Source of the DNA: Hyphomicrobiales bacterium
GTDB lineage: Bacteria > Pseudomonadota > Alphaproteobacteria > Rhizobiales > Rhizobiaceae
NCBI GenBank assembly: GCA_900472175.1
Contig: UCHD01000002.1
Location: 1-64,000 of the forward strand
Direction of reading: 5' to 3'
Length of the DNA: 64,000 bases
Shown here: one piece after another, positions 33,255 through 50,407 of the stretch
How positions within the stretch are numbered: the first letter of the stretch is position 1
Layout: each line of letters opens with the position of its first letter
The notes under the pieces: model-generated
Databases searched by the model: none
The model's input: only the letters and a program-made list of their open reading frames with translations
What the model was told of the DNA's origin: nothing
Made by a program: the position numbers and the translations under genes

Positions 33255-34686
33255 CGATATTCACGTCATCCGCAACGTCACCACCATCGTCGGCTATGAC
33301 GAAAATCGGCAGGGCCATGGCTATCTTTCCGATGGTGATGTCGCCTATGACGCCAACGGCTTCGTCCATGTGGGCGGCCGCTATGATGGTGTTTTCGCCC
33401 ACGAAACCTCCGGCAAGGACAGGATACTGCTGCCGGGCTTCGTCAATGTGCACTGCCATTCCGGTGAAGAGCCGATCTCCAAGGGGGTGTTCGAAGACGA
33501 AGGCACCGCAGCACTGTGGGGCAATGCGCTCTATGAATATTCTAACCTGATCGAGATCAGCGACAGCGCCGTCGAAGCCTCGCTGACGGTCATGCTGGGA
33601 GACCTGATGCGCAGCGGTGTCACCACCCTTGTCGACATTGCCGGCCCGCATGACACATGGCTGCTGACCCTAGCGAAGAGTGGCGCCCGCGCCTATGTGG
33701 CACCTGGTTTCCGCGAAGCCGCATGGCACGTCGAAGACAGCCGCCGTCTCGATCTCGTCTGGGACAAGGGCAGGGGACGCGAGGCGTTTGCCCGGGCGCT
33801 GGAGGTTGTCGATGCGGCCCGTGCGCATCCGTCCGGCAGGCTGGGCGGGATTGTGGCTCCCTCTCAGGTCGAAACATGTTCTGCCGAACTGTTGCAGGCG
33901 GCGGCCGAGGCTGGCCGCAGCCGGAATGTTCCTATCACCGTGCATGCGGCCCAGACGATGGCCGAGCATGAGGAATTGATGCGCCGCACCGGCCTGACGG
34001 CGGTTCAGTATCTTAACGAGCTGGGCGTGCTGGGCGAAGACCTGATCATCGGCCATTGCATCTTTGTCGATGGCCACTCGTGGACACGGCAGCGGACCGA
34101 TATCGACCTTGACCTGCTCGCTGACCGGCGCGCCACGGTCGCCCATTGCCCGGTGACCTTCTCGCGCAGCGGCATGGTGCTGCAATCGCTTGGCCGCTAT
34201 CGCCGCCGCGGCGTCAATGTGGCGCTTGGGACCGACAGTTATCCGTTCAACATGCTGGAGGAGATGCGCCAGGCAATGATCTGCGCGCGGGTTGCCGGGC
34301 GCTCGGTCTTCGATGTCGGCACCGCCGACGTGTTCGAGGCGGCAACACTCGCCGGAGCGCGCGCGCTCGGCCGCAGCGACATCGGCCGGATAGCGCTGGG
34401 TGCCAAGGCCGATTTCAGCATTATCGATCTCAAGCATGCGGCCATGCAGCCGGTCTACGATCCATTGCGCAACCTGCTGCATTGCGCCGCCGAACGCGCC
34501 ATCGAGGCTGTCTATGTGGATGGTCGTGAGGTGGTGAAGGGAGGCAGGCCGGTTCATCTTGATTATGACGGCGCCCTGGCCGAACTGCAGGAAGCGCAGG
34601 ATTTTGCCGTCAGGCACCTGCAGGCCAATGATCCGGCCGGGCGGGCGAGCAATGTGCTGGCAAGGCGGTCCCTACCGCCGATGTGA
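33247..34686 (+). CDS. amidohydrolase, ATZ/TRZ (chlorohydrolase/deaminase) type
   Basis: A 479-residue cytosolic metal-dependent hydrolase. The N-terminal metal pair is NVHCHSGEE, with later ligands in VHAAQTMAEHE, IGHCIFVDGH and LGTDSYPFNMLEE. Relatives deaminate or dechlorinate ring nitrogen compounds such as triazines, guanine or adenosine derivatives. Translational overlap with the permease suggests it acts on the imported compound, so the importer may carry a heterocyclic or guanidino compound rather than a plain amino acid. The substrate is unknown. Confidence 0.86.
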   Translation: MANDIHVIRNVTTIVGYDENRQGHGYLSDGDVAYDANGFVHVGGRYDGVFAHETSGKDRILLPGFVNVHCHSGEEPISKGVFEDEGTAALWGNALYEYSNLIEISDSAVEASLTVMLGDLMRSGVTTLVDIAGPHDTWLLTLAKSGARAYVAPGFREAAWHVEDSRRLDLVWDKGRGREAFARALEVVDAARAHPSGRLGGIVAPSQVETCSAELLQAAAEAGRSRNVPITVHAAQTMAEHEELMRRTGLTAVQYLNELGVLGEDLIIGHCIFVDGHSWTRQRTDIDLDLLADRRATVAHCPVTFSRSGMVLQSLGRYRRRGVNVALGTDSYPFNMLEEMRQAMICARVAGRSVFDVGTADVFEAATLAGARALGRSDIGRIALGAKADFSIIDLKHAAMQPVYDPLRNLLHCAAERAIEAVYVDGREVVKGGRPVHLDYDGALAELQEAQDFAVRHLQANDPAGRASNVLARRSLPPM

Positions 34687-35451: not shown

Positions 35452-35887
35452 TTTCCCAATCCTAATCGCGAGCAACGACAACGCTTTGAATGCCGGGATT
35501 GGGCGATTGTGCGGCGCAGAACTGCTGTTCCACCACTGACGGCCAACATGGTGAACGCCGGGTTAAGGCGAGGCCTCGCGGGAGTGAAAAATGGCCGGTG
35601 TCACCGCTTTGCATCTGCGAATGAATGCGGCTGTTTCCTTCGTTTTCCACCATTGTCCATATCGCCTATACGCGCTTGCAAGTCGGCTGGCCGTTCCCGT
35701 GCCATTGCGGCACCGCATGGGCCGGACGCGCAGTTTTCCTGTCCGGTACTCTGTTTGCACTGGTGGACGTAACGGTTGCAAATCAGGAATTCCGGTCTTC
35801 CGGTGGTTTGTTGAATTTATCCCTTGCGGTTTCGAGCGAGGCCGTGGTAACGTTCCCACGAAATCATGCTGAGGAGGGCGTGTTTCG
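35452..35887. other. intergenic region upstream of the LacI gene
   Basis: 436 bases between the small ORF cluster (minus) and lacI-like (plus). It should hold promoters for both. The clear element is the LacI operator-like palindrome at 35844-35859. Short plus-strand frames here (from 35591 and 35625) lack convincing ribosome sites and are rejected. Confidence 0.5.
35844..35859. promoter_or_regulatory. LacI-type operator 1 (GTGGTAACGTTCCCAC)
   Basis: A 16-base palindrome with one mismatched pair, centred on CG, 28 bases upstream of the LacI ATG. It shares AACGTTCCCAC with a second copy near 36982. Central CG palindromes are typical of LacI-family operators. Autoregulation is likely. Confidence 0.65.
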
Positions 35888-36934
35888 ATGCAGAGACGGC
35901 GTCCGACCATTATTGATGTTGCGCAGAAGGCGGGTGTGTCGAAGAGCACGGCTGGGCGCGCGCTCTCGGGTGCCTCCAATGTGACGGACGAGGCGCGCGA
36001 GCGTGTGCTGGAGGCCGCAAGGGCCGTTGGCTACGAGCGCAACGATCTTGCGGTCGGTATGCGATCGGGGCGGACCGGATTGCTGGGCCTCGTCATTCCG
36101 GATATCACCAACCCCTTCTGGGCCGAGGTTGCCCGTGGCGCGCAGGATCGTGCCGCCGAAAACGGTATGTCGCTGCTGGTGTTTTCATCCGATTGGGATC
36201 ACGGCCGCGAGGCGAGCCACCTTCGGGCGCTCCGGCAAGCGCGGGTCGATGGTGCGATCATCAATCCGGTGGCTGATAATTTTGACGATCTCGACCGGTT
36301 CGGGCTTCCCTTCGTGTTGATCGGCTCGAGCGCCGAGCGTTTCCCGGCCACGTCGAGCGTCGGTTCCGATATCGCCCAGGCTGTGCGGATCGGCATGGAT
36401 CATCTTGTCTCCAAGGGGCATCATGCTCCGGCGCTGATCCTCGGACCCAAGTCGCGTATCGCGCGGGCACGCTTCCTGCGGACCTTCCATGAACATTGCG
36501 TCGAGCGCGATATCGATCCTGCGGCCCTGCCGATGGAAGATGGAGAATATACCGTCGAAGGTGGTCATGCCGCGATGAAGCGATTGCTGGAACGGCAGCA
36601 CGCCAGGCACTTGGCGGTCTTTGCAGCCAATGATTTGATGGCGCTCGGTGCCATGGTGGCCGTGCGCGAGGCGGGACTGCGATGCCCGGAGGATGTATCG
36701 ATCCTCGGATTCGACGGTGTACCCGCCGGTGCATTTTCATGGCCGGGGCTGACGACTGTCGCCAAGCCGGGGCGCGAGATCGGCATGCGGGCGGTCGATT
36801 GCCTGTTTGACGAAATTGCTGGCCGTCCCGAACATGGCCGGGTGTTCATGCCGTGCCGGTTGATCGAGCGCGGCTCGCTGGCCGACCTTTCATTAAGCCA
36901 GCCCATGCGGAAAGCCGGGGCCGGGAGGGGATAA
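35888..36934 (+). CDS. LacI-family transcriptional regulator
   Basis: A 348-residue repressor. The helix-turn-helix TIIDVAQKAGVSKSTAGRALSG begins at residue 7 and the hinge helix follows. The periplasmic-binding-protein-like effector domain has GLVIPDITNPFWAEV and FAANDLMALGAM. It is encoded three bases upstream of the first permease gene, so it should control the ABC importer, ADP-ribosylglycohydrolase and CoA genes to 46.8 kb. GAGGAGGG precedes ATG 35888. The effector is probably the imported glycoside or its product. Confidence 0.92.
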   Translation: MQRRRPTIIDVAQKAGVSKSTAGRALSGASNVTDEARERVLEAARAVGYERNDLAVGMRSGRTGLLGLVIPDITNPFWAEVARGAQDRAAENGMSLLVFSSDWDHGREASHLRALRQARVDGAIINPVADNFDDLDRFGLPFVLIGSSAERFPATSSVGSDIAQAVRIGMDHLVSKGHHAPALILGPKSRIARARFLRTFHEHCVERDIDPAALPMEDGEYTVEGGHAAMKRLLERQHARHLAVFAANDLMALGAMVAVREAGLRCPEDVSILGFDGVPAGAFSWPGLTTVAKPGREIGMRAVDCLFDEIAGRPEHGRVFMPCRLIERGSLADLSLSQPMRKAGAGRG

Positions 36935-36937
36935 TTC

Positions 36938-37915
36938 ATGACTGATCGCCAACATGTCTTGACGTCACCAAGAATTGGGAACGTTCCCACAAATTCTTCC
37001 CGCCGAGCGCCGGGACGGGCGTCCGCGTTCGCCGACGGCTGGCGCCGCTGGTGGCCGTATTACCTCATGATGGCACCCGGCATCCTGTTTTTCTTCGTGT
37101 TCCATTACCTGCCGATCTGGGAAACCCGCATCGCATTCGAGCAGGTCCGCATCGTGCCGCCGAATGTCTGGGTGGGGCTGAAGCATTTCCAGGTGCTGTT
37201 TTCCTCTCCCGTCTTCTGGCAGGTGCTCGCCAACACGTTGATCATCTCGACCATGAAGATGGTGTTCTTCCTGCCGGTTCCGATCATCGTGGCGTTGTTG
37301 CTCAACGAGGTGCGCGGCGGCTCGCTGCGCAAGTTCATCCAGTCGGCGATCTACCTGCCGCATTTTCTCTCCTGGGTGGTCATAGCCGGCATTTTCATTG
37401 CGGCCCTGTCGCCGACGGACGGCGCGGTGAACAATCTGCTCGGGATGGCCGGCATGGCGCCACGCTCGTTCATGACCGACACTGGTGCCATCCGCTGGGT
37501 GCTGGTGTTCACGGAAATCTGGCGTTCGGCCGGGTGGGACAGCCTGCTCTATCTGGCCGCCATCATCGCCATCGACCAGCAGCTTTATGATGCCGCTGAG
37601 GTCGACGGCGCCAACCGGTGGCAAAAGATCTGGCACGTCACCTTGCCCGGCATCGTTCCGACGATCGCCACCCTGTTCATCCTGAACGCGGGGATGTTCC
37701 TCAATGCCGATCTCAACCAGGTCATCAACCTGTCCAACGATGTGGTCCGCAGCAAGATCGATATCGTCGATACCTATGTCTACCGGATCGGCCTGCAGAC
37801 CGGCGAATATTCGCTGGCAACGGCGGCCGGCCTGTTCAAGGCCGTGCTCGGGACGATGATGATCGTCGTCGCGCATTTTGTCTCCAAACGCCTGACCGGA
37901 AAGGGAGTCTGGTAA
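36938..37915 (+). CDS. sugar ABC transporter permease (LplB-like)
   Basis: A 325-residue permease with six spans starting near residue 42 (YYLMMAPGILFFFVFHYLPI) and the EAA loop AAEVDGANRWQKIWHVTLPG. It belongs to the LplB/YtcP-type family that moves oligosaccharides or glycosides. The ATG is three bases after the lacI stop. The first 20 codons contain a perfect operator palindrome, which is unusual for a coding start. Confidence 0.9.
   Translation: MTDRQHVLTSPRIGNVPTNSSRRAPGRASAFADGWRRWWPYYLMMAPGILFFFVFHYLPIWETRIAFEQVRIVPPNVWVGLKHFQVLFSSPVFWQVLANTLIISTMKMVFFLPVPIIVALLLNEVRGGSLRKFIQSAIYLPHFLSWVVIAGIFIAALSPTDGAVNNLLGMAGMAPRSFMTDTGAIRWVLVFTEIWRSAGWDSLLYLAAIIAIDQQLYDAAEVDGANRWQKIWHVTLPGIVPTIATLFILNAGMFLNADLNQVINLSNDVVRSKIDIVDTYVYRIGLQTGEYSLATAAGLFKAVLGTMMIVVAHFVSKRLTGKGVW
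36975..36990. promoter_or_regulatory. LacI-type operator 2, inside the permease gene
   Basis: TGGGAACGTTCCCA at 36976-36989 is a perfect 14-base palindrome. It shares AACGTTCCCAC with operator 1 and lies about 40 bases inside the permease coding frame. A TTGACG at 36959 could be part of an internal promoter. It may act as a roadblock or as the operator of a second promoter. Confidence 0.62.
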
Positions 37916-38811
37916 TGGCCCTGTCGCGCAAGACCCCGATTGAACGCATCGAATACGCGATCATCGTTTCAACACTGCTGCTGCTGGTCGTCGTGACCGT
38001 CCAGCCGATCCTCAACCTTCTGGCGGTTTCGCTGTCGGCACCCGGCAAGGTGCCTGGCATGAGCGGACTGGCCATCCTGCCGGACGGCTTGTCGTTCGAA
38101 GTCTGGAGCGTCCTGCTGCAGCATCCCAACGTCCAGCGCGGCATCATCAACTCGATCTTCATTACCGGTGTCAGCACAGTGATCGGCGTCGTCGGCACGG
38201 CGCTGATGGCCTGGGGGCTGTCGCGGCCGAACCTGCCGGGACGCAAGGCGCTGTTCATTCTGGTGCTCGTCACCATCGTCTTCGAACCGGGCATCATCCC
38301 CGACTACTTCGTCAACAAGCGGCTCGGGCTGCTCGACAGCTACTGGTCGGTGATCCTCTTCAAGGCGGTCAATGCCTGGTACCTGATCATCCTTATTCGC
38401 TTCTTCGAGGAAATTCCGAAGGAGCTGCTGGAAGCCGCCGAACTCGATGGCGCCAACCCCTTCCAGGTGTTCTGGCATCTGGTGCTGCCGCTCGCCAAAC
38501 CTGCGCTGGCAACCATCTCGCTGTTCTATCTGGTCTTCCACTGGAACGAGTTCTTCCGGGCGATGATCTATCTCAACGACCAGGGGAAATGGCCTTTGCA
38601 GGTGGTGTTGCGGCAATTCGTCATCGATGGCGACAAGATCGCGATCGTCGGGGCCGACAGCGCCAACAACAATACCGGTGCGGGGCAGCTCAACCTGCGG
38701 GCGCTGAAGGCCGGGATGATCCTTCTGACCATCGTGCCGATCCTGGCGATCTACCCGCTGATCCTGAAATTCTTCACCAAAGGCACCATGAGCGGCGCGC
38801 TCAAGGGCTGA
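37915..38811 (+). CDS. sugar ABC transporter permease (LplC-like)
   Basis: A 298-residue permease, partner of the preceding gene. The EAA loop is EAAELDGANPFQVFWHLVLP, and the C terminus FFTKGTMSGALKG is typical of YtcP/LplC permeases. The ATG overlaps the upstream stop (TAATG). Confidence 0.9.
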   Translation: MALSRKTPIERIEYAIIVSTLLLLVVVTVQPILNLLAVSLSAPGKVPGMSGLAILPDGLSFEVWSVLLQHPNVQRGIINSIFITGVSTVIGVVGTALMAWGLSRPNLPGRKALFILVLVTIVFEPGIIPDYFVNKRLGLLDSYWSVILFKAVNAWYLIILIRFFEEIPKELLEAAELDGANPFQVFWHLVLPLAKPALATISLFYLVFHWNEFFRAMIYLNDQGKWPLQVVLRQFVIDGDKIAIVGADSANNNTGAGQLNLRALKAGMILLTIVPILAIYPLILKFFTKGTMSGALKG

Positions 38812-38859
38812 TGACGACGACGCAATAACCAAAAAAGCAAATCTAACGGAGGAAACGAA

Positions 38860-40284
38860 ATGCTTAGAAAACTGGTCCTGACGACTTCGACTGCCCTGGC
38901 GCTAAGCCTTGGCATTACCGTGCCTGCCATGGCCGACCCGATCAAGATCCGGATCGTATCCAAGGATTTCGGCCCGACCAACCCGGATGACGTCAAGCAC
39001 CTGCAGCGCATTGAGGAAGCGCTGAAGGCGCAGGGCACCGATCTGGATATCGAGCTCGTCGACCTGCCGTCGTCGGGCTATGCCGACAAGCTTTCCGTCA
39101 TGCTTTTGTCGGGTGATATCCCGGACCTGATCTACTTCCAGGGGGGCGACGCCAAGATGGTCGAGCAGGGGGTGCTTGAAGATCTGGGGTCGATGATTGC
39201 CGAGACGACCTATCTCAAGGACGCGCTCTGGCCGCACAACGTCCAGCGCCTGAAGAACTACCCCTATCTCCTCTATGTCTATCCGGTTCGCGGCCCGCAG
39301 CCTGTTATCCGCAAGGATTGGCTGGAAAAGACCGGCCTGAAGGCGCCTGAAACCGTCGAGGACTATGTGACCCTGTTCAAGGCGATCAAGGACGGCGATC
39401 TCGACGGCAACGGCGTCGCCGACACCTATGGGGTGACCACGGCCGACAATACCAACGAACTGGATTCGATCTTCAACCAGGCATTCGGCATCACCGGCAC
39501 CTGGATGAAGAACACGGCCGGCGAGTGGGTCAGCGCCCGGATCACCAGCCAGGAGAAGGACAAGATCGCCTTCTACGCCTCGTTGCGCGAGCAGGGGCTT
39601 TACGATCCGGAATACATCACCACCAAATTCGATGTGAAGGAAGACAAGTTCTATACCGGCAAGGCCGGGGTGATCTTCGGTTCGTCCGGCGAAGTCATCG
39701 ACATTTATGGCGGCAAGATGCGGCAGGTACATCCGGGTACCGAACTCGTGCTTCTTGCACCGCCCAAGGGTCCGGGCGGGCAGGGTCTTTCCGCCGTCGA
39801 CGTATCCAAGGAATCGCGTGGCTTCGCCATCTCGACCACCTCCGAACACAAGGCGGAGGTGATGAAGCTGCTGGACTTCATGGCAAGCCCTGAGGGCCAG
39901 ATGTTCGATCGGCTGGGCTTCGAAGGCCAGGAGTTCACCAAGGACGGCGATAGCTACAAGGTGACCGACAAGATCGCCACCTGGTACGCCCGCTTCATGG
40001 TGGCGGCGAACTGGACGCCGCCCGTGGTCTGGCAATCGCAAGCCGCCCAGCAATCGCTGGCAACGATCCAGAAGGACTTCAAGCCGGACAACACGTTCGT
40101 CTGGCCGGCCGATTATGCCGCTGATCTCGATGCCACCGAAAACGTCTATCGCTCCTGGGTCTACAAGTTCATCTCGGGCGCGGCGAAAATGGACCAGTGG
40201 GATCAATATGTCGCCGAATGGGAAGCCGCCGGCGGCACGCGTCTCAACGAGTATGCAAGGACTGTTCTCGATGCAAAAAACTAG
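38860..40284 (+). CDS. sugar ABC transporter, extracellular binding protein (LplA-like)
   Basis: A 474-residue family 1 solute-binding protein. The signal peptide ends at about VPAMA, and the mature chain starts DPIKIRIVSKDFGP. It is long, as in LplA proteins that bind larger saccharides. GGAGGAA precedes ATG 38860. Its 3' end overlaps the first ADP-ribosylglycohydrolase gene by 14 bases. Confidence 0.9.
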   Translation: MLRKLVLTTSTALALSLGITVPAMADPIKIRIVSKDFGPTNPDDVKHLQRIEEALKAQGTDLDIELVDLPSSGYADKLSVMLLSGDIPDLIYFQGGDAKMVEQGVLEDLGSMIAETTYLKDALWPHNVQRLKNYPYLLYVYPVRGPQPVIRKDWLEKTGLKAPETVEDYVTLFKAIKDGDLDGNGVADTYGVTTADNTNELDSIFNQAFGITGTWMKNTAGEWVSARITSQEKDKIAFYASLREQGLYDPEYITTKFDVKEDKFYTGKAGVIFGSSGEVIDIYGGKMRQVHPGTELVLLAPPKGPGGQGLSAVDVSKESRGFAISTTSEHKAEVMKLLDFMASPEGQMFDRLGFEGQEFTKDGDSYKVTDKIATWYARFMVAANWTPPVVWQSQAAQQSLATIQKDFKPDNTFVWPADYAADLDATENVYRSWVYKFISGAAKMDQWDQYVAEWEAAGGTRLNEYARTVLDAKN

Positions 40285-41455
40285 TGCTTCCGGGCTCTCT
40301 CTGAAAGGGAGAGTCCGCGCGCTCATCCATGGCGTCGCGCTCGGCGACGCCATGGGGGCGCCGGTCGAAAAACTGCCTGCCGCCGATATCGTGGCGCGCT
40401 ACGGCCGGGTCGCCTCGCTCGACACGCAGTGGCACAAGATGTCGCTCGACGCGACGGCGCGCAACGGCAGGGTACGCGGCAATGGCATCGTCACCGACGA
40501 TACGCTGATGACGCTCTGCCTGATGGATATCTATGCCGATGTCGGCCGGCATCTGGACGCCTGGGACATGGCCGACGGTATGGTGCGCCAGATCGCCTGG
40601 ATTCCCCGCTACGTGCCGGAACTCCAGCGCGAGGCGATGCTGATCGAGCGGCTGTTCTACCCGGAAAAATGGATTTTCCAGCGTCACCAGCTGACCTCCT
40701 GCGATCCCCGGCAGGGCGGTATCGGCAACATGGTCAACTGCGGTGCCGCCATGTACGTGGCGCCGATCGGTGTGATCAATGCCTGCGATCCGAAGGCTGC
40801 CTATGACGAGGCGATCGCTTTCGCTTCCGGCCATCAGGAAAGCTATGGCCTGGAAGCAGCCGGCGTGTTTGCTGCTGCCGTTGCCGCCGCTTTCGTGCCC
40901 GGCACGACGATCGATACCGTGGTCGAGACGGTCCTGGCCCTGGCCAAGGACGGCACCCGCAACGCCATCGCCGATATCGCGCAAAGCGCCCGCCAGTTGA
41001 AGGCTGAGGGTGCGGATCATGCGGCGGTGGTTGCAGAATTCCACCGGGTCATCGCGCCCTATTCCCCGATGGGGGACGACGTCAACCACACCGCTGCCAA
41101 GGCCGGGCGCCTGACAGGCGCCTATCAGCCGAACCGACTGGGTTCGATCGAGGAACTGCCGCTGGCGCTGGGCTTCTGCCTCGTCAATGACGGCGATTTC
41201 CGCCGCTCGATCGAGGATGGCATCAATTCCGGCCGCGATACCGACTCGATTGGGGTCATGGCGGGCGCCATTCTCGGCACCATGCACGGCGAAGACGTTG
41301 TCGATGAGGCCGACTGCCAGCTGCTCGACCGGGCAAACCGGCTCGATCTCACCGCATCAGCCGATGCGTTCACCGAAACCGTCAAAACCATCCTCGCAGC
41401 CGACCAGGCTGCGGCGGAAAACCGTAGCCGCAGCCGCGCTGCTCTCCTGATTTAG
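40271..41455 (+). CDS. ADP-ribosylglycohydrolase-family protein (1)
   Basis: A 394-residue DraG-like all-helical hydrolase. The three metal-binding motifs are conserved: GVALGDAMGAPVE (about residue 22), VTDDTLMTL (about 74) and GRDTDSIGVMAGAILG (about 318). It has no signal peptide, so it is cytosolic. Family members cleave N- or O-glycosidic bonds of ADP-ribose or related ribosides. Being fused by overlap to a binding-protein gene suggests it acts on the imported compound, probably a glycoside. The start at 40271 lies 14 bases inside the upstream gene. Confidence 0.85.
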   Translation: MQKTSASGLSLKGRVRALIHGVALGDAMGAPVEKLPAADIVARYGRVASLDTQWHKMSLDATARNGRVRGNGIVTDDTLMTLCLMDIYADVGRHLDAWDMADGMVRQIAWIPRYVPELQREAMLIERLFYPEKWIFQRHQLTSCDPRQGGIGNMVNCGAAMYVAPIGVINACDPKAAYDEAIAFASGHQESYGLEAAGVFAAAVAAAFVPGTTIDTVVETVLALAKDGTRNAIADIAQSARQLKAEGADHAAVVAEFHRVIAPYSPMGDDVNHTAAKAGRLTGAYQPNRLGSIEELPLALGFCLVNDGDFRRSIEDGINSGRDTDSIGVMAGAILGTMHGEDVVDEADCQLLDRANRLDLTASADAFTETVKTILAADQAAAENRSRSRAALLI

Positions 41456-41473
41456 AATTGTAAAGAAAGACGC

Positions 41474-43582
41474 ATGATGTCCAAGCTGACCAAAGAGATG
41501 ATTCACGAGAAGATCTATGCCGGTTTCATCGGCAAGGCGATTGGCGTTCGTCTCGGTGCGCCGGTTGAGCCGACGATCTGGAGCTACGAGCGCATCCACA
41601 GGACCTATGGCGAAGTCACCCAGTATCTGCGCGACTTCAAGAATTTTGCCGCCGATGACGATACCAACGGCCCGGTCTATTTCATCCGCGCGCTGCGCGA
41701 CTACGGCCTGAAGGCGAGTGCTGCCGATGTTGGCCGGACCTGGGTGAACTATGCCGCCGAGGAGCATGGCATGTATTGGTGGGGCGGCTTTGGGGTATCC
41801 ACCGAACACACGGCCTATCGCAACCTGCGCGCCGGTATTCCGGCACCCCAGTCCGGATCCATCGCCCAGAACGGCGCCAGCGTTGCCGAGCAGATCGGCG
41901 GGCAGATCTTCATCGACAGCTGGGGCTGGGTGCATCCCGGCGAGCCGCAGAAAGCCGCCGATGCCTCGGCGCGGGCCGCAAGTGTTGCCCATGACGGCGA
42001 GGGTTTGAATGGCGCGCGCTTCTGCGCTGCGGCGATTGCTGCGGCGTTTGAAGCAACGTCGATTGCCGATATCGTCACCACTGCCATGGCGACGATATCG
42101 GCAAAATCCACCTACGCGCGCGTCGCCCAAGCGGTGATCGATTTCCACAAGGCCAACCCTGGCAACTGGCGCGCGTGCCGCGACATGCTGACGGCGGAAT
42201 GGGGCTATGACCGTTATCCCGGCGTCTGCCATATCATTCCGAATGCCGGCGTCACCGTGATGGCGATCCTCTATGGCGAGGGCGATCTGCCGCGCACCGC
42301 CGAGATTGCCACGATGGCCGGCTGGGATACCGACTGCAATGCCGGCAATGCCGGTGCCATCGTCGGCACGTTCCAGGGCGTGCAGCCGGGCTGGGATCGA
42401 TACCGGACGCCGATCAACGATTTCGTCATCGCCTCCGGCGTCGTCGGCTCGATCAACATCGTCGACATTCCGTCCTTCGCGCGGGAACTGACGGTGCTGG
42501 CACTCCAGCTGCGTGGCGACGAGGTGCCGGCGCTCTGGCTCGAAGACTTCACCCGGCGCGGTGTCCGCTTCGATTTCGATCTGCCGGGCTCGACGCATGC
42601 CTTCCGGACAGCGGGTTTCAACCAGATCAGCGTCAAGTCATCGACAGAAAAACATGTCGAAGGCTCTCGCGGTTCGCTGGAAATCCAGCTCGATCGGCTT
42701 GAGCGCGGGCATGGCGGCCGCATTTTCTGGAAGCCGTTCTATCGCCGCGAGGATTTTGACGACGAGCGCTATCGTCCGATGTTCACGCCGCTGGTCGATG
42801 CGGGACAGAAGGTCTCGTTCAAGCTGTTGCTCGATCCCTGGAACGGCGACGGCAATCTGCGCGTCGTCCCTTACGTCCGCCGCGCCATGTCGGGAACGGT
42901 CGAGGAAATCGGCGGCTGGCATGTGCCCGATCATCAGGGCTGGCAGGACTACGCGTTCACCGTCCCGGAAGGCGTGGAGGCCATCGACGAGATCGGCATT
43001 CAGGTCGAATATTTCGGCCGGTTGAAATTCCTCGGTCGCCTGTTCCTTGCCGATTTCAACGTCGAAGGTGTCGGCCATACCGTCATCGACCCGAAAACCG
43101 AAGTGCAGGAATGGGGGGCGATTTCCCGCTTCACCTGGAACCGCGGCCATTGGACCCTGCAGAACGGCCGCATTCACGCCCATACGGCCAGCGACGCCGA
43201 TATCTGGACGGGGCATTATTATGCCCGCGCCGTCACCGTTCGCGCCGATATCCAGCCGCTGGCAGGGACGTCGCATCTGGTCACCGCTCGCGTCCAGGGC
43301 ACCAGCCAGTTCTACGCTGCCGGGTTTGATGGCGATGACGTGGTGATCCTGAAGGAGGATTTCGGCACCACCGTTCTGGTCCGGGCGCCCTTCAAGCGGG
43401 AGTTTGGCCGCAATTATGCATTCGCGTTTTCGGCGCACGGCGACACTTTGTCGTTTGCGGTCGATGGCAAGGTGCTGATCGAGGCAAAGGACGGTCAGTA
43501 CACCTACGGCATGGTCGGCCTCCGCCTCGGTGCGCTCGGGCGCATGAGTGTCGGCACGGTTGAGATCGTCGAGGCTGCCTGA
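41474..43582 (+). CDS. ADP-ribosylglycohydrolase-family protein (2) with C-terminal beta domains
   Basis: A 702-residue protein. The N-terminal half (about 1-350) is a DraG-like domain with GFIGKAIGVRLGAPVE, DDDTNGPVYF and AGWDTDCNAGNAGAIVGT. The C-terminal half has no recognised name. It reads as two beta-rich domains (about 370-520 and 530-700), the second resembling LamG or DUF1080-like folds that bind carbohydrate. It has no signal peptide. It is transcribed with the first DraG-like gene, so the two may act on different linkages or steps. Confidence 0.82.
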   Translation: MMSKLTKEMIHEKIYAGFIGKAIGVRLGAPVEPTIWSYERIHRTYGEVTQYLRDFKNFAADDDTNGPVYFIRALRDYGLKASAADVGRTWVNYAAEEHGMYWWGGFGVSTEHTAYRNLRAGIPAPQSGSIAQNGASVAEQIGGQIFIDSWGWVHPGEPQKAADASARAASVAHDGEGLNGARFCAAAIAAAFEATSIADIVTTAMATISAKSTYARVAQAVIDFHKANPGNWRACRDMLTAEWGYDRYPGVCHIIPNAGVTVMAILYGEGDLPRTAEIATMAGWDTDCNAGNAGAIVGTFQGVQPGWDRYRTPINDFVIASGVVGSINIVDIPSFARELTVLALQLRGDEVPALWLEDFTRRGVRFDFDLPGSTHAFRTAGFNQISVKSSTEKHVEGSRGSLEIQLDRLERGHGGRIFWKPFYRREDFDDERYRPMFTPLVDAGQKVSFKLLLDPWNGDGNLRVVPYVRRAMSGTVEEIGGWHVPDHQGWQDYAFTVPEGVEAIDEIGIQVEYFGRLKFLGRLFLADFNVEGVGHTVIDPKTEVQEWGAISRFTWNRGHWTLQNGRIHAHTASDADIWTGHYYARAVTVRADIQPLAGTSHLVTARVQGTSQFYAAGFDGDDVVILKEDFGTTVLVRAPFKREFGRNYAFAFSAHGDTLSFAVDGKVLIEAKDGQYTYGMVGLRLGALGRMSVGTVEIVEAA

Positions 43583-43586
43583 CGTT

Positions 43587-43627
43587 TCGCCCCGTCTGCT
43601 GCCTTCGAAAGAGGGCAGGCGGGGCGA
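43587..43627. repeat. 13-bp hairpin between two operon genes
   Basis: TCGCCCCGTCTGC (43587-43599) pairs with GCAGGCGGGGCGA (43615-43627) at 13 positions with one wobble, around a 15-base loop. No T-run follows and the ATPase gene begins soon after. It may tune expression of the distal genes by partial termination or RNA processing. Confidence 0.55.
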
Positions 43628-43659
43628 TGGTCTAGGCGGAGCAATTGGGAGGAATGTGC

Positions 43660-44715
43660 ATGTCTGAGATCGAACTCAGGAACGTCGGCAAGAGCTATGG
43701 CAGCCTGTCCGTACTCAACGATATCTCGCTTGATATGAGCAGCGGCGAGTTTGTGGTTCTGGTCGGCCCGTCGGGCTGCGGCAAGTCCACGCTGCTGCGG
43801 ATGATTGCCGGGCTGGAGGATATCAGCGCCGGTGAGATCACCATCGGCGGCAAGATCGTCAACGACATGCCGGCAAAGGAACGCGACCTGGCGATGGTGT
43901 TTCAGAGCTATGCGCTCTACCCGCATATGAAGGTCGCCGACAATATGAGTTTTGCGCTCAAACTCGCCGGCGTCTCCAAGGTGGAGATCAACCGTCGTGT
44001 CAACGACGCTGCCGAAATCCTTGGCCTGGAACATCTTCTTGGTCGCCTGCCGCGTGAGCTTTCCGGTGGGCAGCGCCAGCGTGTCGCCATGGGGCGCGCC
44101 ATCGTGCGTGATCCGCGCGCCTTTCTGTTCGATGAGCCGCTGTCCAATCTCGATGCCAAACTTCGCGTCAAGATGCGCGGCGAGATCAAGAAACTGCATC
44201 AGCGCCTGGGCAAGACGACGATCTACGTCACCCACGACCAGACCGAAGCGATGACCATGGCCGACACGATCGTGGTGCTGAACGGTGGCAGGATCGAGCA
44301 GATGGGGCCGCCGCTGGAGCTTTACAGAAATCCCCGCAACCTCTTCGTTGCAGGGTTCATCGGCTCGCCGGAAATCAACTTGCTGAAGGGCGAAGTCGAC
44401 GGGACTTCACTCAGGCTTGCCGATGGCACCGCGCTGCCGCTGCCCGCCGGCCTTAATCTGGCTCAGGGCCGCAAAGCCACCTACGGCATCCGCCCGCAGC
44501 ATGTCCGCCTCAGCGATGAGGGTGTTGCCGCCGAGGTCGGGCTGGTCGAGCCGACCGGGGATACGCAGGAAGTGACGCTGCGGCTTGCGGCGAACGATAT
44601 CACCATGGTGCTGGGCGACGATCCGCCATTGCTGCCCGGTGCGCGGGTGAGAATCGGCATCGATCCCGCCAATGTGCTGCTGTTCGATGACATATCCGGC
44701 GAACGCATCCAATGA
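43660..44715 (+). CDS. sugar ABC transporter ATPase (UgpC/MsmK family)
   Basis: A 351-residue ATPase. Walker [10 protein letters not shown] is at residues 36-44, the signature is [19 protein letters not shown], Walker B is [11 protein letters not shown], and the C-terminal TOBE-like domain is present. It powers the LplBC-like permeases. GGGAGG at 43647-43652 sits ideally before ATG 43660; in-frame ATG 43654 is too close. Its stop overlaps the next ATG. Confidence 0.93.
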
Positions 44716-45929
44716 CCGGCTACGCGCGCAAACATTGGGACCCAAGGGCTGAAGGTCCGCTTGAGGGCATCAAGGTGCTCGATCTTTCGCGGCTGGTGGC
44801 CGGCAACATGCTGTCGCTGCAACTGGCCGATTTCGGTGCCGATGTGGTCAAGATAGAGCCTCCGGCCGGCGATCCGCTGCGGGAGTGGAAGGAAGACGGG
44901 CTTTCGCTGTTCTGGAAGACCTACGGCCGCAACAAGCGCTCCGTGGTGCTCAACCTGCGCGAAGCGGCGGATCGCGAGGCGCTGTGGGCTTTGATTGATA
45001 GCGCCGACGTGCTGATCGAAAATTACCGGCCGGGCACGTTGGAACAGATGGGCTTTGGCCCCGATGTGCTGCTGGCGCGCAACCCCGATTTGGTCGTCGT
45101 GCGCATTTCAGGATTCGGCCAGACAGGTCCCTATGCCACGTTTCCCGGTTTTGGAACCATCGTTGAGGGCATGAGTGGCTATGCCTATCGGACCGGGTTT
45201 GCGGATCGTGAACCGGTCCTGCCGCCGCTGGCGCTGGCCGACATGATCGCCGGGATCTATGGCATGTCGGCCACGGTCACAGCCCTTTTTGCCCGCCAGC
45301 AGGGTAAGGCGGGCGGGCAGGTGATCGATCTGTCGCTGCTGGAGCCGATCTTCTCGGTGCTCGGCCCGGAGGCGGCCATCTACGCGCTGACCGGCAAGGT
45401 CAAGGAGCGCACCGGCAGTGCCTCCAACACGGCATGCCCGCGCAATGTCTACCGCTGCGCCGATGGCCAATATGTGGCCCTGTCCGGCTCGACGCCCGCT
45501 GTCGCGCGGCGTATTTTCGAGATCATCGGACGGGCCGATATGAATGACGACCCGCGCTTTTCCACCAACAGCGCGCGTCTCAAACATCGGGACCTGGTCG
45601 ATGAAGCAATCGGCGCCTGGTTTTCGGCTCGCTCGCACGACGAGGCGTTGGCGGTCATGCGCGACAGCGGCGCAACTGTCGGTCCGATCTACAGCATCGC
45701 CGATGCGGCCTCAGATGCGCATTTCAACGAGCGCGAGGTCATCGTCGCCCTGGACGACGAGGAGCACGGCGTGCTGCCGATGCACAACATCGTCCCGCGC
45801 ATGTCCGCGACACCCGGAGGTTTCCGGCGCCCGGCACCCGCACTTGGCGAACACACGTCGGAGGTGCTGACGGAGGCCGGTGTTTCTGCCGAAACCGTAG
45901 CGACGATCGTTGCCGGAGCCGCTGGATGA
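44712..45929 (+). CDS. CaiB/BaiF-family CoA-transferase
   Basis: A 405-residue class III CoA-transferase. It opens with [20 protein letters not shown] and has [19 protein letters not shown] and the catalytic aspartate in [12 protein letters not shown]. It moves CoA between carboxylic acids. The ATGA overlap with the ATPase ties it to the import operon. It pairs with the CitE-like lyase that follows, as in pathways where an acid is activated to its CoA ester and then cleaved. The acid is unknown. Confidence 0.9.
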
Positions 45930-46786
45930 AGTTGCGCTCGCTGCTTTACGTTCCCGCACATCTCGACCGCTTCGTCGGCCGGGCTCACGAGCGCACTGCC
46001 GACGCAATCATCCTCGATCTCGAGGATTCGGTGCCGGTCGCAAGCAAGCTTGGCGCCCGCGAAGTGCTGCCCGGCTCGGTCCGACAAACGGGGCAATCAG
46101 GTGCGGCGGTGTTCGTACGGATCAATGCCGACGACGCTCTGCTATTCGATGACGCTGCGGCTGCGTGCAGGGCGGGCGCCTATGGCCTTGTCGTTCCAAA
46201 GGTGACGTCCGCCGGGGAACTTGAACGGCTCGCTGTCCACCTTGCCGCTGTGGAGCGCGACATGGCGCGTGCGCCGATGTCCATTATCGGCCTCATCGAA
46301 GATCCGGGGGCGGTGTTCGATGCGCGGGCGGTGGCCGCACATGCCCGTGTGCTTGGCCTGGCCCTCGGCAGCGAGGACTTTGCCATGGCGATGGGGGCCG
46401 ACCCGGTGCCGGATGTCCTGCGGCTCCCGAAGCTTACGGTTCATATGGCCGCGAAGGCGCATGGCAAACTGTCCTTCGGCCTGCTTCGCAGTATCGCGGA
46501 TTATGCCGATAGCGACGGCCTGCAGGCAGCTGCCATTGAAGCCAAGGCCTTTGGGTTTGACGGCGCAACATGCGTTCACCCGTCGGCCGTTCCGGTCCTG
46601 AATGCCGGGTTCTCGCCGACCGAGGCGGAATGCGATTGGGCAAGGCGTCTGCTCGTTGAAGCGGCCAAGGCAACCGCGGAAAACCGCGGAGCCTTTATCT
46701 TCGAAGGCAGAATGGCCGACGCGCCAGTCCTGGCACGCGCCCGGACGATATTGACCAAGGCGGGGCGAGGCGGCGAAAGCGACTGA
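45926..46786 (+). CDS. HpcH/HpaI aldolase, citrate lyase beta-like (CitE)
   Basis: A 286-residue TIM barrel. The motif LRSLLYVPAHLDRFV starts it, ILDLEDSVPVASK and a later LIEDPGAV supply acidic metal ligands, and ALGSEDFAMAMG is conserved. CitE-like proteins cleave acyl-CoA esters such as malyl- or citramalyl-CoA. With the CaiB gene it implies a hydroxy-acid CoA intermediate. It overlaps the upstream stop (ATGA). It is the last gene of the operon. Confidence 0.88.
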   Translation: MKLRSLLYVPAHLDRFVGRAHERTADAIILDLEDSVPVASKLGAREVLPGSVRQTGQSGAAVFVRINADDALLFDDAAAACRAGAYGLVVPKVTSAGELERLAVHLAAVERDMARAPMSIIGLIEDPGAVFDARAVAAHARVLGLALGSEDFAMAMGADPVPDVLRLPKLTVHMAAKAHGKLSFGLLRSIADYADSDGLQAAAIEAKAFGFDGATCVHPSAVPVLNAGFSPTEAECDWARRLLVEAAKATAENRGAFIFEGRMADAPVLARARTILTKAGRGGESD

Positions 46787-46844: not shown

Positions 46845-48311
46845 TCAAGCCGCCTTGGGTTCGATCAATCCGTCCAGGCTGCCGATCAGTGCCGAGCTTG
46901 CCTGATTTAATCCGGCAACATCCACGGCGATGCCATGGCTCCTGAACCGTTGCACCACCTTGTCGAGTGCGGCAACAGCCGTGATATCCCAGAAATGCGC
47001 TTCCGATACATCGATCAGCACCGTCATCCCGGTGGCCTGCGGAATATCGAATGCCTCGATGAAAATGTCTGCGGAGGCAAAGAATACTTGCCCGGAGACA
47101 CGGTACGACACGCGGCCAGCCTCGCTATCGACCGTTGTTTCCACCCGCAGCAGGCGGGCGACCTTGAACGTGAAGAAGACGCCGCTGAGCAGCACGCCGA
47201 CGGTGACGCCCAGCGCGAGGTTGGAGCTGAACACCGTGACCAGAACGGTCGCCACCATCACGGCACTCGACATCCTGGGATGAACGACCACCGAGCGCAG
47301 TGACGACCAATCAAATGTGTCGATCGATACCATCACCATGATAGCGACCAATGCGGCGACCGGGACCTGGGAAACCCATGGCTTGAGCAAGACCATCAGG
47401 ATCAGCAGGAAGGCGCCGGCAAACAGGGTGGAGAGGCGGCCGCGCCCACCGTATTTCACGTTGCTGACCGTCTGGCCGATCATGCCGCATCCGGCGATGC
47501 CGCCGAACAGGCTGGCCGCAGCATTGGCGATGCCAAGGCCGGTACACTCCCGGTTTTTCGAACTTGCGGTGCCGGTGAGATCATCGACGACGCTGGCCGT
47601 CATCATGGATTCGAGCAGGCCGACCATGGCGATGGCCAAGGCCGGTCCGGCGATGATTGCCAGCGTTTCCAGCGTCAGCGGAACGGCGGGCCACCCAAAG
47701 ACCGGAAGGGTGTCCGGCAGTTTGCCGAGGTCGGCGACGGTCATGACCGGCAGCTGAAAAGCAATCGAGGCAACCGTCAGCACAAGGATGCAGATCAGCG
47801 GCGACGGGATCGCCCGCGTGATCCTTGGAACAAGATAGATGATCGCAAGCCCGGCGGCGAGCATGGCATAGGCAATCCAGTCCCCACCAATGATATGCGG
47901 CAGTTGGGCCGCAAAGATCAGGATGGCCAGCGCATTGACGAAACCGGTGCGGACGGAATTGGAAACAAACCGCATGAGAACGCCAAGGCGCAATAGTCCG
48001 AAGGCGATCTGGAAAATGCCGGCCAGCAACCCGGCGGCGAACAGGTATGGCAGTCCGTGCGCATGGACCAGAGGGGTCGCAACCAGCGCCACCGAGCCAG
48101 CCGCAGCCGAAATCATCGCGGGGCGTCCGCCGGTAAACGCGATGACGATGCCGATGACGAACGAGGCGAACAGGCCGACCTGCGGATCGACGCCTGCGAC
48201 GAAGGAAAAGGCGATAACCTCGGGGATCAGGGCGAAGGTCGCGACAGCGCCGGCAAGCATGTCGCGCATGGGGTTGGCGGACCAATCCCGGCGGATGGAT
48301 GAAAATAACAT
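46845..48311 (-). CDS. SulP-family anion transporter with STAS domain
   Basis: A 488-residue transporter. The family start [19 protein letters not shown] is followed by about ten to twelve spans. The C-terminal STAS domain has [22 protein letters not shown]. Members move sulfate, bicarbonate or organic anions. ATG 48311 has no clear ribosome site; the upstream in-frame extension is compositionally unlikely. It is convergent with the CitE operon. Confidence 0.88.
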
Positions 48312-48636
48312 GGGGTGAGTTCTCGCAAAGCATGGCAACGCGCTTCTCGAAGCGGGTATGGATTGGCATGCGGGTTTTGCGTTGTCTGGCGGATCGGCGG
48401 CCAGAAGAGCCACCCGGAATTTCACCGGGTCCGTGGTGATTGAAGGGGTTATAGACCGCATTTTTGCAGCGATGCAACACGAAATGTCTCCTGATCGCGG
48501 GCGACCTGGGAGCGAGCTGCGATCAGGGGGCTGGGGCTTTCCGGCCCTTGCTCGGCCGGTCGAAGATTGCTGATGGATGCGCCCGCGGCCGATACAGGCC
48601 GCGCGCGCTTCTTAAAGATTGGCGCGAGGGTGAGCC
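48312..48636. other. intergenic region between SulP and the biotin carboxylase gene
   Basis: 325 bases, all upstream of the minus-strand SulP gene and downstream of the biotin carboxylase gene. A 7-bp hairpin CGCGGCC/GGCCGCG (48584-48603) is a possible end-of-transcript structure. No ORF or other regulatory element is convincing. Confidence 0.45.
48584..48603. terminator. GC hairpin downstream of the biotin carboxylase gene
   Basis: CGCGGCC (48584-48590) and GGCCGCG (48597-48603) form a 7-bp stem with a GATACA loop, 34 bases past the stop of the minus-strand gene. There is no T-run. Confidence 0.28.
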
Positions 48637-50364
48637 TTACTCGACCCGGGCGAGGGCCGATCCGGCGTTGACGTAGGCGCCTTCTGCAGCCTTGATGCGC
48701 AGCACGCCGGAGCGCGCCGAGAGGATCTGCGTTTCCATCTTCATCGCTTCCATCACGGCGATCAGGTCGCCCTCTTTCACAGTGTCGCCATCGTTGCATT
48801 TCCAGGCCTGCAACGTGCCCGAAATGGGAGCTGCGACAGTGGAGGCGTCCTCGACATTCGCCGTTGCTGCCGGACCGGAATCCTGTCCTTTCAAGCCGCC
48901 GAGGCCGGCCAGCAGCGCGGCTGGAATGCCGAGCGCATGGCGTTTGCCGTCGATCTCGACATGAGTGCGGATTAGCGATGTGTCGGCACCCGGAGCGGGC
49001 CGGGTTTCGGCTGCCAGGGTGTCTGCGAAATCGGTTTCGATCCAGCGCGTATGAACCTTGAAGCCGTCGTCGCCAATGAAGTCGGGAGCGTCCATCGCGG
49101 CGCGGTGGAACGGCAGAACCGTCGCGATGCCTTCGATCTTGAACTCCTGGAGTGCCCGGCGCGCGCGTGTCATCGCCTGCTCGCGGGTGGCGCCGGTGAC
49201 GATCAGCTTCGCCATCAGCGAATCGAACGTGCCGGGAATGGTCGAGCCGGAGACGACGCCGCTGTCGAGACGCACGCCGGGGCCGGATGGAGCGTCGAAT
49301 GTCGTAATGGTGCCGGGCGTCGGCAGGAAGCCGCGGCCGGGATCTTCGGCATTGATGCGGAATTCGATCGAGTGGCCGCGCGGGGCGGGCGTCTCGGTGA
49401 CCAGCAGCGGCAGGCCGTCGGCGATGCGGAACTGTTCGATCACAAGGTCGATGCCGGTGGTCTCTTCGGTGACGGGATGTTCGACCTGCAGGCGGGTATT
49501 GACCTCGAGGAAGGAGATCGTGCCATCGACGCCGAGCAGAAATTCGACCGTACCGGCGCCGGAATAGCCGGCGGCGGCGCAGATCTTTTTTGCGGCATCG
49601 TGGATCGACTGGCGCTGCGCGTCGCTGAGGAAGGGAGCGGGGGCCTCTTCGATGAGCTTCTGGTTGCGCCGTTGCAGCGAACAATCGCGGGTGCCAAGCA
49701 CCAGGACGTTACCGTGTTTGTCGGCGATCACCTGTGCCTCGATATGGCGCGGACGGTCGAGGAAACGTTCGAGGAAACATTCGCCGCGGCCAAAGGCGGC
49801 CTTGGCTTCACGCACGGCCGACTCGTAGAATTCGGCAATGTCTTCCATTTTCCAAGCGACCTTGATCCCGCGCCCACCACCGCCGTGGGCGGCCTTGATC
49901 GCGACCGGAAGGCCGAATTTTTCGGCAAAGGCAATAACCTCGGCTGCCGTTTCGACAGGACCGTCGCTGCCGGCCACCAATGGCGCACCGACGCTCTTGG
50001 CGATCCGCCGTGCTTCCACCTTGTCGCCGAGCATTTCGATGACGTGTGGGTCGGGGCCGATCCAGATCAGGCCGGCATCGATAACCGCACGGGCAAATTC
50101 TGCCCGTTCGGACAGGAAGCCGTAGCCCGGATGCACGGCGTCGGCGCCGGAGCGCTTGGCGATGCCGATCAGCTTTTCGATGTCGAGATAGGTTTCCGCC
50201 GGCCGGCTGCCGGAAAGCCCATAGGCCTCGTCGGCCAGCTGGACAAACAGCGCGTCCATGTCCGGATCGGCATAGACAGCAACCGAGCCGATGCCATGGT
50301 CGCGGCAGGCGCGGATGATGCGGACGGCGATTTCGCCACGGTTGGCAATCAGCACTTTTTTCAT
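48637..50364 (-). CDS. biotin carboxylase fused to biotin carboxyl carrier domain
   Basis: A 575-residue biotin-dependent carboxylase subunit. The N-terminal biotin carboxylase half opens [15 protein letters not shown] and has the glycine-rich [28 protein letters not shown] and FLEVNTR motifs. The C-terminal biotinyl domain has [10 protein letters not shown], with the biotin lysine at about residue 542. AGGA lies before ATG 50364; an in-frame start at 50403 adds little. It neighbours a KipI-KipA fusion, which is related to the carboxyltransferase part of urea carboxylase. Together they have all the urea carboxylase modules. Confidence 0.9.
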
Positions 50365-50407
50365 GGGTTCTATCCTCATTGTCCTTGTTCGGCCGGGCAT
50401 CACGATA

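Follow-up and report, generated by a model that had tools for sequence, protein, structure and literature searches.

The closest described systems each share a part of the locus examined here. The PF03747 family includes the ADP-ribosylhydrolases DraG and ARH1–ARH3, and one of its members, YegU, is encoded in the Escherichia coli yegTUV operon, whose function is given as unknown, with ADP-glucose tried as an effector, in an excerpt of PMC10819704. An excerpt of another source names (S)-citramalate as an intermediate of the methylaspartate ammonia-lyase pathway and describes citrate and citramalate lyases as similar and probably homologous (PMC4682846). LplABC and the other CUT1 sugar importers, for their part, combine two permeases, a family 1 solute-binding protein (SBP) and an ATPase of the UgpC subfamily. 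In the locus described below, by contrast, such an importer is paired with DraG hydrolases and with coenzyme A (CoA)-dependent acid cleavage. It lies in a 64,000-nucleotide stretch of a Hyphomicrobiales genome (assembly GCA_900472175.1, contig UCHD01000002.1, positions 1 to 64,000 of the forward strand), hereafter the window, where a plus-strand run of nine genes at 35888-46786 encodes a LacI-type repressor, two permeases, a binding protein, two PF03747 proteins (DraG1 and DraG2), an ATPase, CaiB and CitE.

This operon is a new combination of known parts, and the open-licence literature searched held no description of it, nor of DraG together with a CoA-transferase or with a ribokinase. Its gene content, conservation, operators, conserved active-site residues and exchange of lyases are directly observed; with modest confidence, we read the whole as a LacI-controlled system in which a conjugate of ribose and citramalate would be imported, hydrolysed and turned into ribose 5-phosphate, acetyl-CoA and pyruvate. 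That all nine genes serve one pathway is very probable: uptake and breakdown of a glycosylated or ribosylated hydroxy-acid by a single pathway was the original prediction, and its ribosylated form is supported by the ribokinases and exchanged citramalate lyases found in the clusters of relatives.

Conservation of the operon across bacteria

The genes are tightly packed, with distances in bases of 3 (lacI–permB), -1 (permB–permC), 48 (permC–SBP), -14 (SBP–DraG1), 18 (DraG1–DraG2), 77 (DraG2–UgpC), -4 (UgpC–CaiB) and -4 (CaiB–CitE). The coordinates thus bear out the nine consecutive, closely spaced plus-strand genes originally proposed, and Pfam confirmed every gene family named at that stage. 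The importer is of the CUT1 type, having an SBP, two permeases and an ATPase above the UgpC subfamily cut-off. The window genome encodes two PF03747 proteins, both within this operon.

A scan of genome contigs for DraG1 returned at least 594 candidate stretches, at least 587 of them relatives, from which the best 80 loci were kept rather than a random sample; their open reading frames were labelled against the window proteins and reference proteins from the loci. Full context was available for 63 of the 80 (28 from Bacillota and 35 others, including three Burkholderiaceae loci without an ABC importer), 17 being dropped since, to one side of DraG1, less than 6.5 kb of sequence was available. 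Other searches gave a separate set of 14 loci, or 13 without the four-DraG cluster L016. The two sets overlap (L010/L037 and L015/L061, with L013 resembling L059), and L012 and L019 are alike; the 13 loci include at least two repeats.

The alphaproteobacterial loci (Ensifer, Sinorhizobium, Aminobacter, Devosia, Pelagibacterium and Rhodobacterales) mostly show the order LacI-permease-permease-SBP-DraG1-DraG2-(UgpC)-CaiB-(CitE). Those of Bacillota (sampled from Paenibacillus, Cohnella, Thermobacillus, Bacillaceae, a member of the Halanaerobiales and Clostridiales bins) mostly read permease-permease-SBP-DraG1-DraG2, joined by genes for an AtuA-family protein and a ribokinase; a GntR regulator is frequently present as well. 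The Burkholderiaceae loci L060, L063 and L067 combine LacI, a FucP/NagP-type major facilitator superfamily (MFS) transporter and DraG1, with a ribokinase in L060 (Caballeronia). The gene order is conserved far beyond chance, since it recurs in Hyphomicrobiales and Rhodobacterales together with a conserved LacI operator. Hits in genome samples were few: counting the centre genome each time, 8 of the 199 genomes sampled from the family contain DraG1, 2 of 385 sampled genomes of the class contain DraG2, and the DraG1 profile matched 1 of 398 phylum genomes, 3 of 348 Bacillota and 1 of 17 genomes in the class of the Bacillota genome G1141. DraG1 also occurs in 21 plasmid records.

Two further loci deserve mention. 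A 6.4 kb contig binned as Planctomycetota (L052, JAQCHP010000211.1) carries an alphaproteobacterial-looking permC-SBP-DraG1-DraG2-UgpC run that is 54-75% identical, and a binning error is possible. An alphaproteobacterium with a 1.6 Mb genome encodes an SBP, two permeases, a DraG2-like protein (30% identical) and a reductase-like gene in a row, along with a divergent HpcH/HpaI aldolase (L109:5276-12471); the stretch examined contains no DraG1 match.

Ribokinases in related clusters and the sugar

A PfkB-family ribokinase is part of the cluster in 25 of the 28 full-context Bacillota loci and in two of the 35 others. Three of five cluster ribokinases pass the TIGR02152 equivalog cut-off of 299.65 (L086 with 325.6, L074 with 301.9 and L060 with 349.9). 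In Agrobacterium HAMBI 105, the ribokinase gene follows UgpC at the very place where the window has CaiB, and no full-context locus has both a ribokinase and CaiB. The best ribokinase-like gene of the window genome lies outside the operon and, at 261.8 bits, scores below the same cut-off. Because ribokinases occur in the clusters of relatives and PF03747 is a ribose-handling family, the sugar released is probably D-ribose.

Exchangeable lyases and the acid

The original prediction had made its single pathway depend on CaiB and CitE being conserved with the importer elsewhere. Among the 35 full-context loci outside Bacillota, CaiB is in the cluster in 30 and CitE in 25, and the Bacillota clusters have the unrelated CmlAB. 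The evidence for the latter comes from L086, whose AtuA-family protein matches, over residues 5-446, chain A of PDB entries 9erq and 9evf (E 6.5e-133), deposited as citramalate lyase with chain A as subunit A (CmlA), while the product of the next gene (103 aa) matches 9erq chain B (CmlB, DUF4387; E 5.5e-23). Hence, the place that CaiB and CitE take in Alphaproteobacteria is filled in Bacillota by a citramalate lyase from a different family. Homologues of both CmlA and CmlB are present in 27 of the 28 full-context Bacillota loci, and CmlA and CaiB co-occur in none of the 63. Another Bacillota genome (G1141, locus L128) has a third acid system, consisting of CitF (TIGR01584, 638.8 against a cut-off of 501.45 bits) and a CitE-CitD fusion.

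The window's own enzymes are clear members of their families. CaiB scores 385 bits against the PF02515 cut-off of 23.3, and its D177, which we take to be the catalytic Asp of class III CoA-transferases, aligns with Asp in all five PDB sequences shown and is conserved in 41 of 41 full-length operon proteins (two fragments excluded). CitE scores 101 against the PF03328 cut-off of 25 bits, and the residues shared by all of 37 proteins compared include E125, D151 and D265, presumably the metal-binding and catalytic acids. The best NCBIfam model for CaiB, a succinate-glutarate transferase, is reached with 252 of 750 bits, and CitE misses the model of the citramalyl-CoA lyase RipC/Ccl (NF038242) with 111.2 against 375 bits.

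The substrate common to CaiB with CitE, CmlAB, and CitF with CitE-CitD is citramalate. Malate and citrate are intermediates of the tricarboxylic acid (TCA) cycle that need no dedicated lyase; citramalate is not, and does need one. Since it is the common substrate of the three systems and requires a lyase, citramalate is the likely identity of the acid, though we hold this less firmly than the identity of the sugar. Malate, citrate or another 3-hydroxy acid would leave the logic of the pathway otherwise unchanged: CitF/CitE/CitD carries the name of citrate lyase, related CaiB-CitE pairs adjoin TctABC transporters or RraA-type aldolases, and as families CitE-type lyases and class III CoA-transferases also act on malyl-CoA and related substrates. 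However, neither malate nor citrate needs a lyase of its own to feed into the TCA cycle, and CmlAB is deposited as citramalate lyase and placed in the methylaspartate pathway, so we consider such an acid unlikely. A methanopterin-type hydroxyglutarate, considered as a further candidate, was dropped because the CitE-type retro-Claisen step is incompatible with 2-hydroxyglutarate.

The two lyase systems also replace each other outside the operon. An E. coli plasmid (L107) has CmlAB-type genes next to those for fumarase, glutamate mutase and methylaspartate ammonia-lyase; on a Sinorhizobium meliloti plasmid, methylaspartate ammonia-lyase (an equivalog match, 621 against 286.15 bits) is followed by CaiB, by a CitE 36.4% identical to the window's and later by fumarate hydratase. 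The two systems are therefore interchanged where citramalate is an intermediate. The DUF1446 and DUF4387 proteins of the E. coli plasmid (L107:7001-8685) resemble the solved CmlAB through the L086 proteins, and such a pair would answer the open fate of (S)-citramalate raised in the excerpt of PMC4682846.

Coupling of the acid module to DraG2

An acid module is present in 57 of the 59 full-context loci with DraG2 (the exceptions being L058 and L082) and in none of the four without it (Fisher p 2.5e-5, relatedness ignored). In L024 the operon has CaiB without an adjacent CitE, and a CitE 54% identical lies about 194 kb away on the same contig; the plasmid of L022 likewise encodes a CitE, 51% identical. 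In the separate 14-locus set, DraG2 occurs with CaiB in L010, L011, L013, L014, L021 and L022, and L015 and L018 have neither DraG2 nor acid genes.

These patterns bear on the idea that the substrate is a common riboside or a compound resembling a nucleoside, in which ribose is joined to a base or alcohol, with CaiB-CitE hitch-hiking in the operon to serve other metabolism. Caballeronia, Pararhizobium mangrovi and Ruegeria do have DraG1, a ribokinase and a transporter but no acid genes with them (in Ruegeria the sequence extends only 3.9 kb downstream), the LacI protein resembles CytR, RbsR and PurR, and in E. coli yegTUV a DraG homologue and a PfkB kinase accompany a transporter that is putatively of the nucleoside type. 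Yet acid modules of different composition accompany DraG1 and track DraG2, and UgpC, CaiB and CitE are joined by 4-base overlaps; a plain riboside thus appears distinctly unlikely.

DraG1 and DraG2 as putative ribosidases

Both proteins exceed the PF03747 gathering cut-off of 26.2 bits (DraG1 137.8, DraG2 166.3), and DraG2 matches the DraG1 profile with 95.8% probability. The family's metal motif we take to be T-D-D-T ... D-x-D-S/T, with Thr/Ser as the usual ligands. In DraG1 the residues T75, D76, D77, T78, D323 and S326 are kept in 28 of 28 proteins and D325 in 27 of 28. DraG2 retains the metal Asp residues of this two-part acidic motif in 25 of 25 proteins with differing Thr/Ser positions: A60-D61-D62-D63 is invariant and is followed by T (13), A (10) or V (2), and D285-T286-D287-C288 is again found in 25 of 25. 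The claim that both DraG-like proteins keep the metal motifs hence holds for DraG1 (27-28 of 28) and only in part for DraG2, which has kept the Asp residues but is changed at the Thr/Ser positions.

The structure model of DraG1 (mean confidence, pLDDT, 87.7) finds its best matches in human ARH3 and Rhodospirillum rubrum DraG. In that of DraG2 (pLDDT 89.1), the N-terminal domain matches ARH3 with a TM-score of up to 0.74, and the C-terminal part matches Bacillus subtilis CBM66 over about 158 columns at 2.3 A with a TM-score of 0.81 by target length; a pair of CBM22 domains ranks first among the structural matches but fits loosely, its TM-score by target length being 0.35-0.38. Given this ARH3-like domain and CBM66-like extension, the DraG2 model resembles a glycosidase of modular build more than an enzyme that removes ADP-ribose from proteins. 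DraG1 is predicted to release ribose; it is a guess that the bond between ribose and citramalate might be cut by DraG2 and a different ribosyl bond by DraG1.

Should the two proteins instead act on ADP-ribosylated proteins or free ADP-ribose, in signalling or scavenging, the DraG/ARH3 fold and metal motif would be readily explained. Against this, DraG1 scores 41.7 against the 337.05-bit cut-off of the DraG equivalog TIGR02662, for which DraG2 gives no match; Pfam finds no ADP-ribosyltransferase family among the nine genes; the genes sit in an import operon that has a ribokinase in relatives; and DraG2 bears a carbohydrate-binding-like sandwich. Such a role is therefore highly improbable, and protein de-ADP-ribosylation in particular was set aside on the missed equivalog cut-off and the import context.

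Four PF03747-type proteins follow one another in a single import operon in two loci, L128:7036-14595 (Bacillota) and L016:9952-14531 (Nonomuraea gerenzanensis); the first adds CitF and the CitE-CitD fusion, and the second a ribokinase.

A repressor with conserved operators

The LacI protein scores below all NCBIfam equivalog cut-offs shown, the best models being CytR, RbsR and PurR. Two putative operators flank its gene, O1 (GGTAACGTTCCC) and the palindrome O2 (GGGAACGTTCCC). Of the 60 loci entered into the operator survey, four have no lacI in the stretch; among the remaining 56, some of which are near-repeats, O2 lies 34-65 bases 3' of the lacI stop in every one, matching one of three 12-mers without mismatch in 53 and with one mismatch in three, and an O1-like site stands upstream of lacI in 51. 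The Burkholderiaceae loci L060, L063 and L067 all retain O2. With up to one mismatch, 55 loci have 109 sites around lacI and three elsewhere in 1.01 Mb. Genome-wide, where the exact O1 form was searched, this 12-mer occurs once per genome in 8 of 8 genomes, by coordinates always at this operon, against 0-2 occurrences of its reversed control pattern in the same genomes. Because of this unique placement of the exact O1 form, the repressor looks dedicated to the operon. A sigma-70 consensus scan gave no match at the lacI promoter.

One could also suppose that separate sugar and acid genes merely share a promoter and have no common substrate, as several operons without an acid module might suggest. 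The gene order and operators are, however, conserved over several alphaproteobacterial orders and analogous enzymes are exchanged, which makes this the least probable of the explanations weighed here.

Features and surroundings

Coordinates are collected in Table 1. The permB start is uncertain: it may be 36938, which places O2 inside the gene, or 37067/37070 as in a shorter annotated homologue (849 bp), which places O2 in the permB leader. Start-codon context makes 40271 and 43660 the most likely starts of DraG1 and UgpC.

Table 1. Features of the operon and of a related CaiB-CitE operon (window positions unless a locus is given)
Feature	Position	Strand	Remarks
LacI operator O1, GGTAACGTTCCC	35846..35857	+	upstream of lacI
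LacI-family repressor, 348 aa	35888..36934	+	Pfam LacI and Peripla_BP_3
ABC permease 1 (permB, LplB/UgpA-like), 325 aa	36938..37915	+	BPD_transp_1
LacI operator O2, perfect palindrome, GGGAACGTTCCC	36977..36988		42 bases past the lacI stop
ABC permease 2 (permC, LplC/UgpE-like), 298 aa	37915..38811	+	BPD_transp_1; start with ribosome-binding-site-like sequence
Extracellular solute-binding protein family 1, 474 aa	38860..40284	+	SBP_bac_1 E 4.7e-27
DraG1, PF03747 hydrolase, 394 aa	40271..41455	+	PF03747 E 7.8e-40; complete metal motifs
DraG2, PF03747 (17-303) and C-terminal beta-sandwich region, 702 aa	41474..43582	+	PF03747 E 1.6e-48
UgpC/MsmK-type ABC ATPase, 351 aa	43660..44715	+	ABC_tran/TOBE_2; NF008653 469.1 bits, cut-off 432
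CaiB, class III CoA-transferase, 405 aa	44712..45929	+	CoA_transf_3 PF02515 E 4.9e-115
CitE, predicted citramalyl-CoA lyase, 286 aa	45926..46786	+	HpcH_HpaI PF03328 E 7.7e-29
RraA-aldolase CaiB-CitE operon	L129:4237-12773, L130:4149-12705, L131:4303-12725

About 1.2 kb upstream of the operon, an amidohydrolase gene (33247-34686) stands directly behind an ABC permease-like open frame and is not obviously related. Downstream, the minus strand at 46845-50403 encodes a SulP-type transporter with a STAS domain and a biotin carboxylase with a biotinyl domain.

The proposed pathway and the evidence that weighs against it

Each reaction and substrate in the following scheme, like the division of labour between DraG1 and DraG2, is a prediction. 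Until an inducer is present, the LacI-type repressor would occupy the operators that flank its gene, and the ABC importer would bring in a conjugate containing ribose and citramalate. Inside the cell, DraG1, and probably DraG2, would hydrolyse its (N- or O-) ribofuranosyl bonds to give D-ribose and citramalate. A ribokinase, encoded elsewhere in the window genome and within the cluster in relatives, would convert the ribose to ribose 5-phosphate; CaiB would activate citramalate with CoA taken from succinyl-CoA or a similar donor, and the resulting citramalyl-CoA would be split by CitE into acetyl-CoA and pyruvate.

Several observations weigh against this scheme. As to the compound, the open-licence literature searched mentions no ribosyl-citramalate or citramalate glycoside. 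As to the sugar, the cluster ribokinases of L064 (235.3) and L017 (279.4) stay under the TIGR02152 cut-off. As to the hydrolases, the metal motif of DraG2 is altered from that of its family. As to the acid, neither CaiB nor CitE reaches any NCBIfam equivalog cut-off, and their sequences therefore do not fix their substrates. Specificity for citramalate is also not proven because the CaiB of the window has closer relatives, with 66-68% identity in the three plasmids viewed, in pairs accompanied by an RraA-type aldolase, an SBP and importer genes of the Fbp type, and other related CaiB-CitE pairs adjoin TctABC transporters. The CitF case comes from one genome, whose DraG1 shares 40% and whose permeases share 24-28% identity with their window counterparts, so the compound handled by the L128 cluster may be a related one and not the same.

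The association between the acid module and DraG2 has its own exceptions. The 80 loci are the best-scoring part of at least 587 DraG1 relatives and no random sample, and in the 13-locus set CaiB accompanies DraG2 in only 6 of 11 loci; the 14-locus set has DraG2 without acid genes in L009, L012, L017, L019 and L020. A genome of the same genus (G175) has the operon without CaiB-CitE, and L082 has DraG2 with no CmlA match anywhere in its genome. CaiB relatives do occur outside the CaiB-less DraG2 operons in the genome of L058 (70% identical), in G175 (68%) and in G040 (56%), and the L019 plasmid has a CaiB-CitE-type pair next to TctABC transporter genes; all of these could be parts of other operons. 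Being absent from the DraG2-bearing operons L009, L012/L019, L017, L020 and L058, CaiB-CitE is an exchangeable module and not a fixed part. Finally, a maximum-likelihood tree of 69 DraG1 rows unites all Bacillota CmlAB loci in one starred clade, so the difference between CaiB-CitE and CmlAB may reflect a single historical switch, with few independent events; L128 and L016 form a separate deep branch.

Aureimonas, Shinella and Pararhizobium share an operon of the order regulator-SBP-permease-ATPase-CaiB-CitE-hydroxyacid dehydrogenase-RraA aldolase, the source of the CaiB proteins 66-68% identical to the window's (Table 1).

Comparison with known systems

With DraG and ARH1–ARH3, the operon's hydrolases share the PF03747 family, the fold and, in DraG1, the metal residues. 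They differ in their nutrient-import context, in DraG1 lying far under the DraG equivalog cut-off, and in the altered metal motif and extra beta-sandwich region of DraG2. If the ribosyl-citramalate pathway is correct, DraG-family proteins gain a role in nutrient breakdown, and the operon points to a ribose-citramalate metabolite absent from the literature searched. Going further, and only tentatively, ribosylated citramalate might be an undescribed class of natural compounds, so widespread in soil and rhizosphere that both Alphaproteobacteria and Bacillota maintain operons dedicated to its uptake, DraG-fold proteins might be metal-dependent ribosidases of small metabolites, and DraG2 and the four-DraG clusters might represent new glycoside hydrolase families. 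The reading lends itself to testing, since the hydrolases, the repressor and the binding protein should all be soluble.

The methylaspartate/mesaconate route to citramalate has the same enzyme classes and the same exchange of CaiB-CitE for CmlAB (an excerpt of PMC4682846). There, however, citramalate comes from mesaconate, whereas here it would come from an imported conjugate, and no methylaspartate or mesaconate genes are among the operon's nine. The rus locus of Bacteroides thetaiotaomicron (BT2804 region) likewise joins a ribokinase, a nucleoside hydrolase and dedicated uptake, but its uptake is of the SusC/D type and citramalate genes are absent from the one table row that covers it in PMC10434189, an otherwise unrelated study on iron.

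Like the Bacillota version, E. coli yegTUV with yegW/ggaR combines a transporter, a PF03747 protein (YegU, 25% identical to DraG1, E 2e-18), a PfkB kinase and a GntR regulator. It differs in its MFS-type transporter, in having no acid module and in its kinase, which shares 23% identity with the ribokinase of the L086 cluster. Should the proposed pathway hold, it would offer a way into such orphan transporter-DraG-kinase operons, yegTUV among them.

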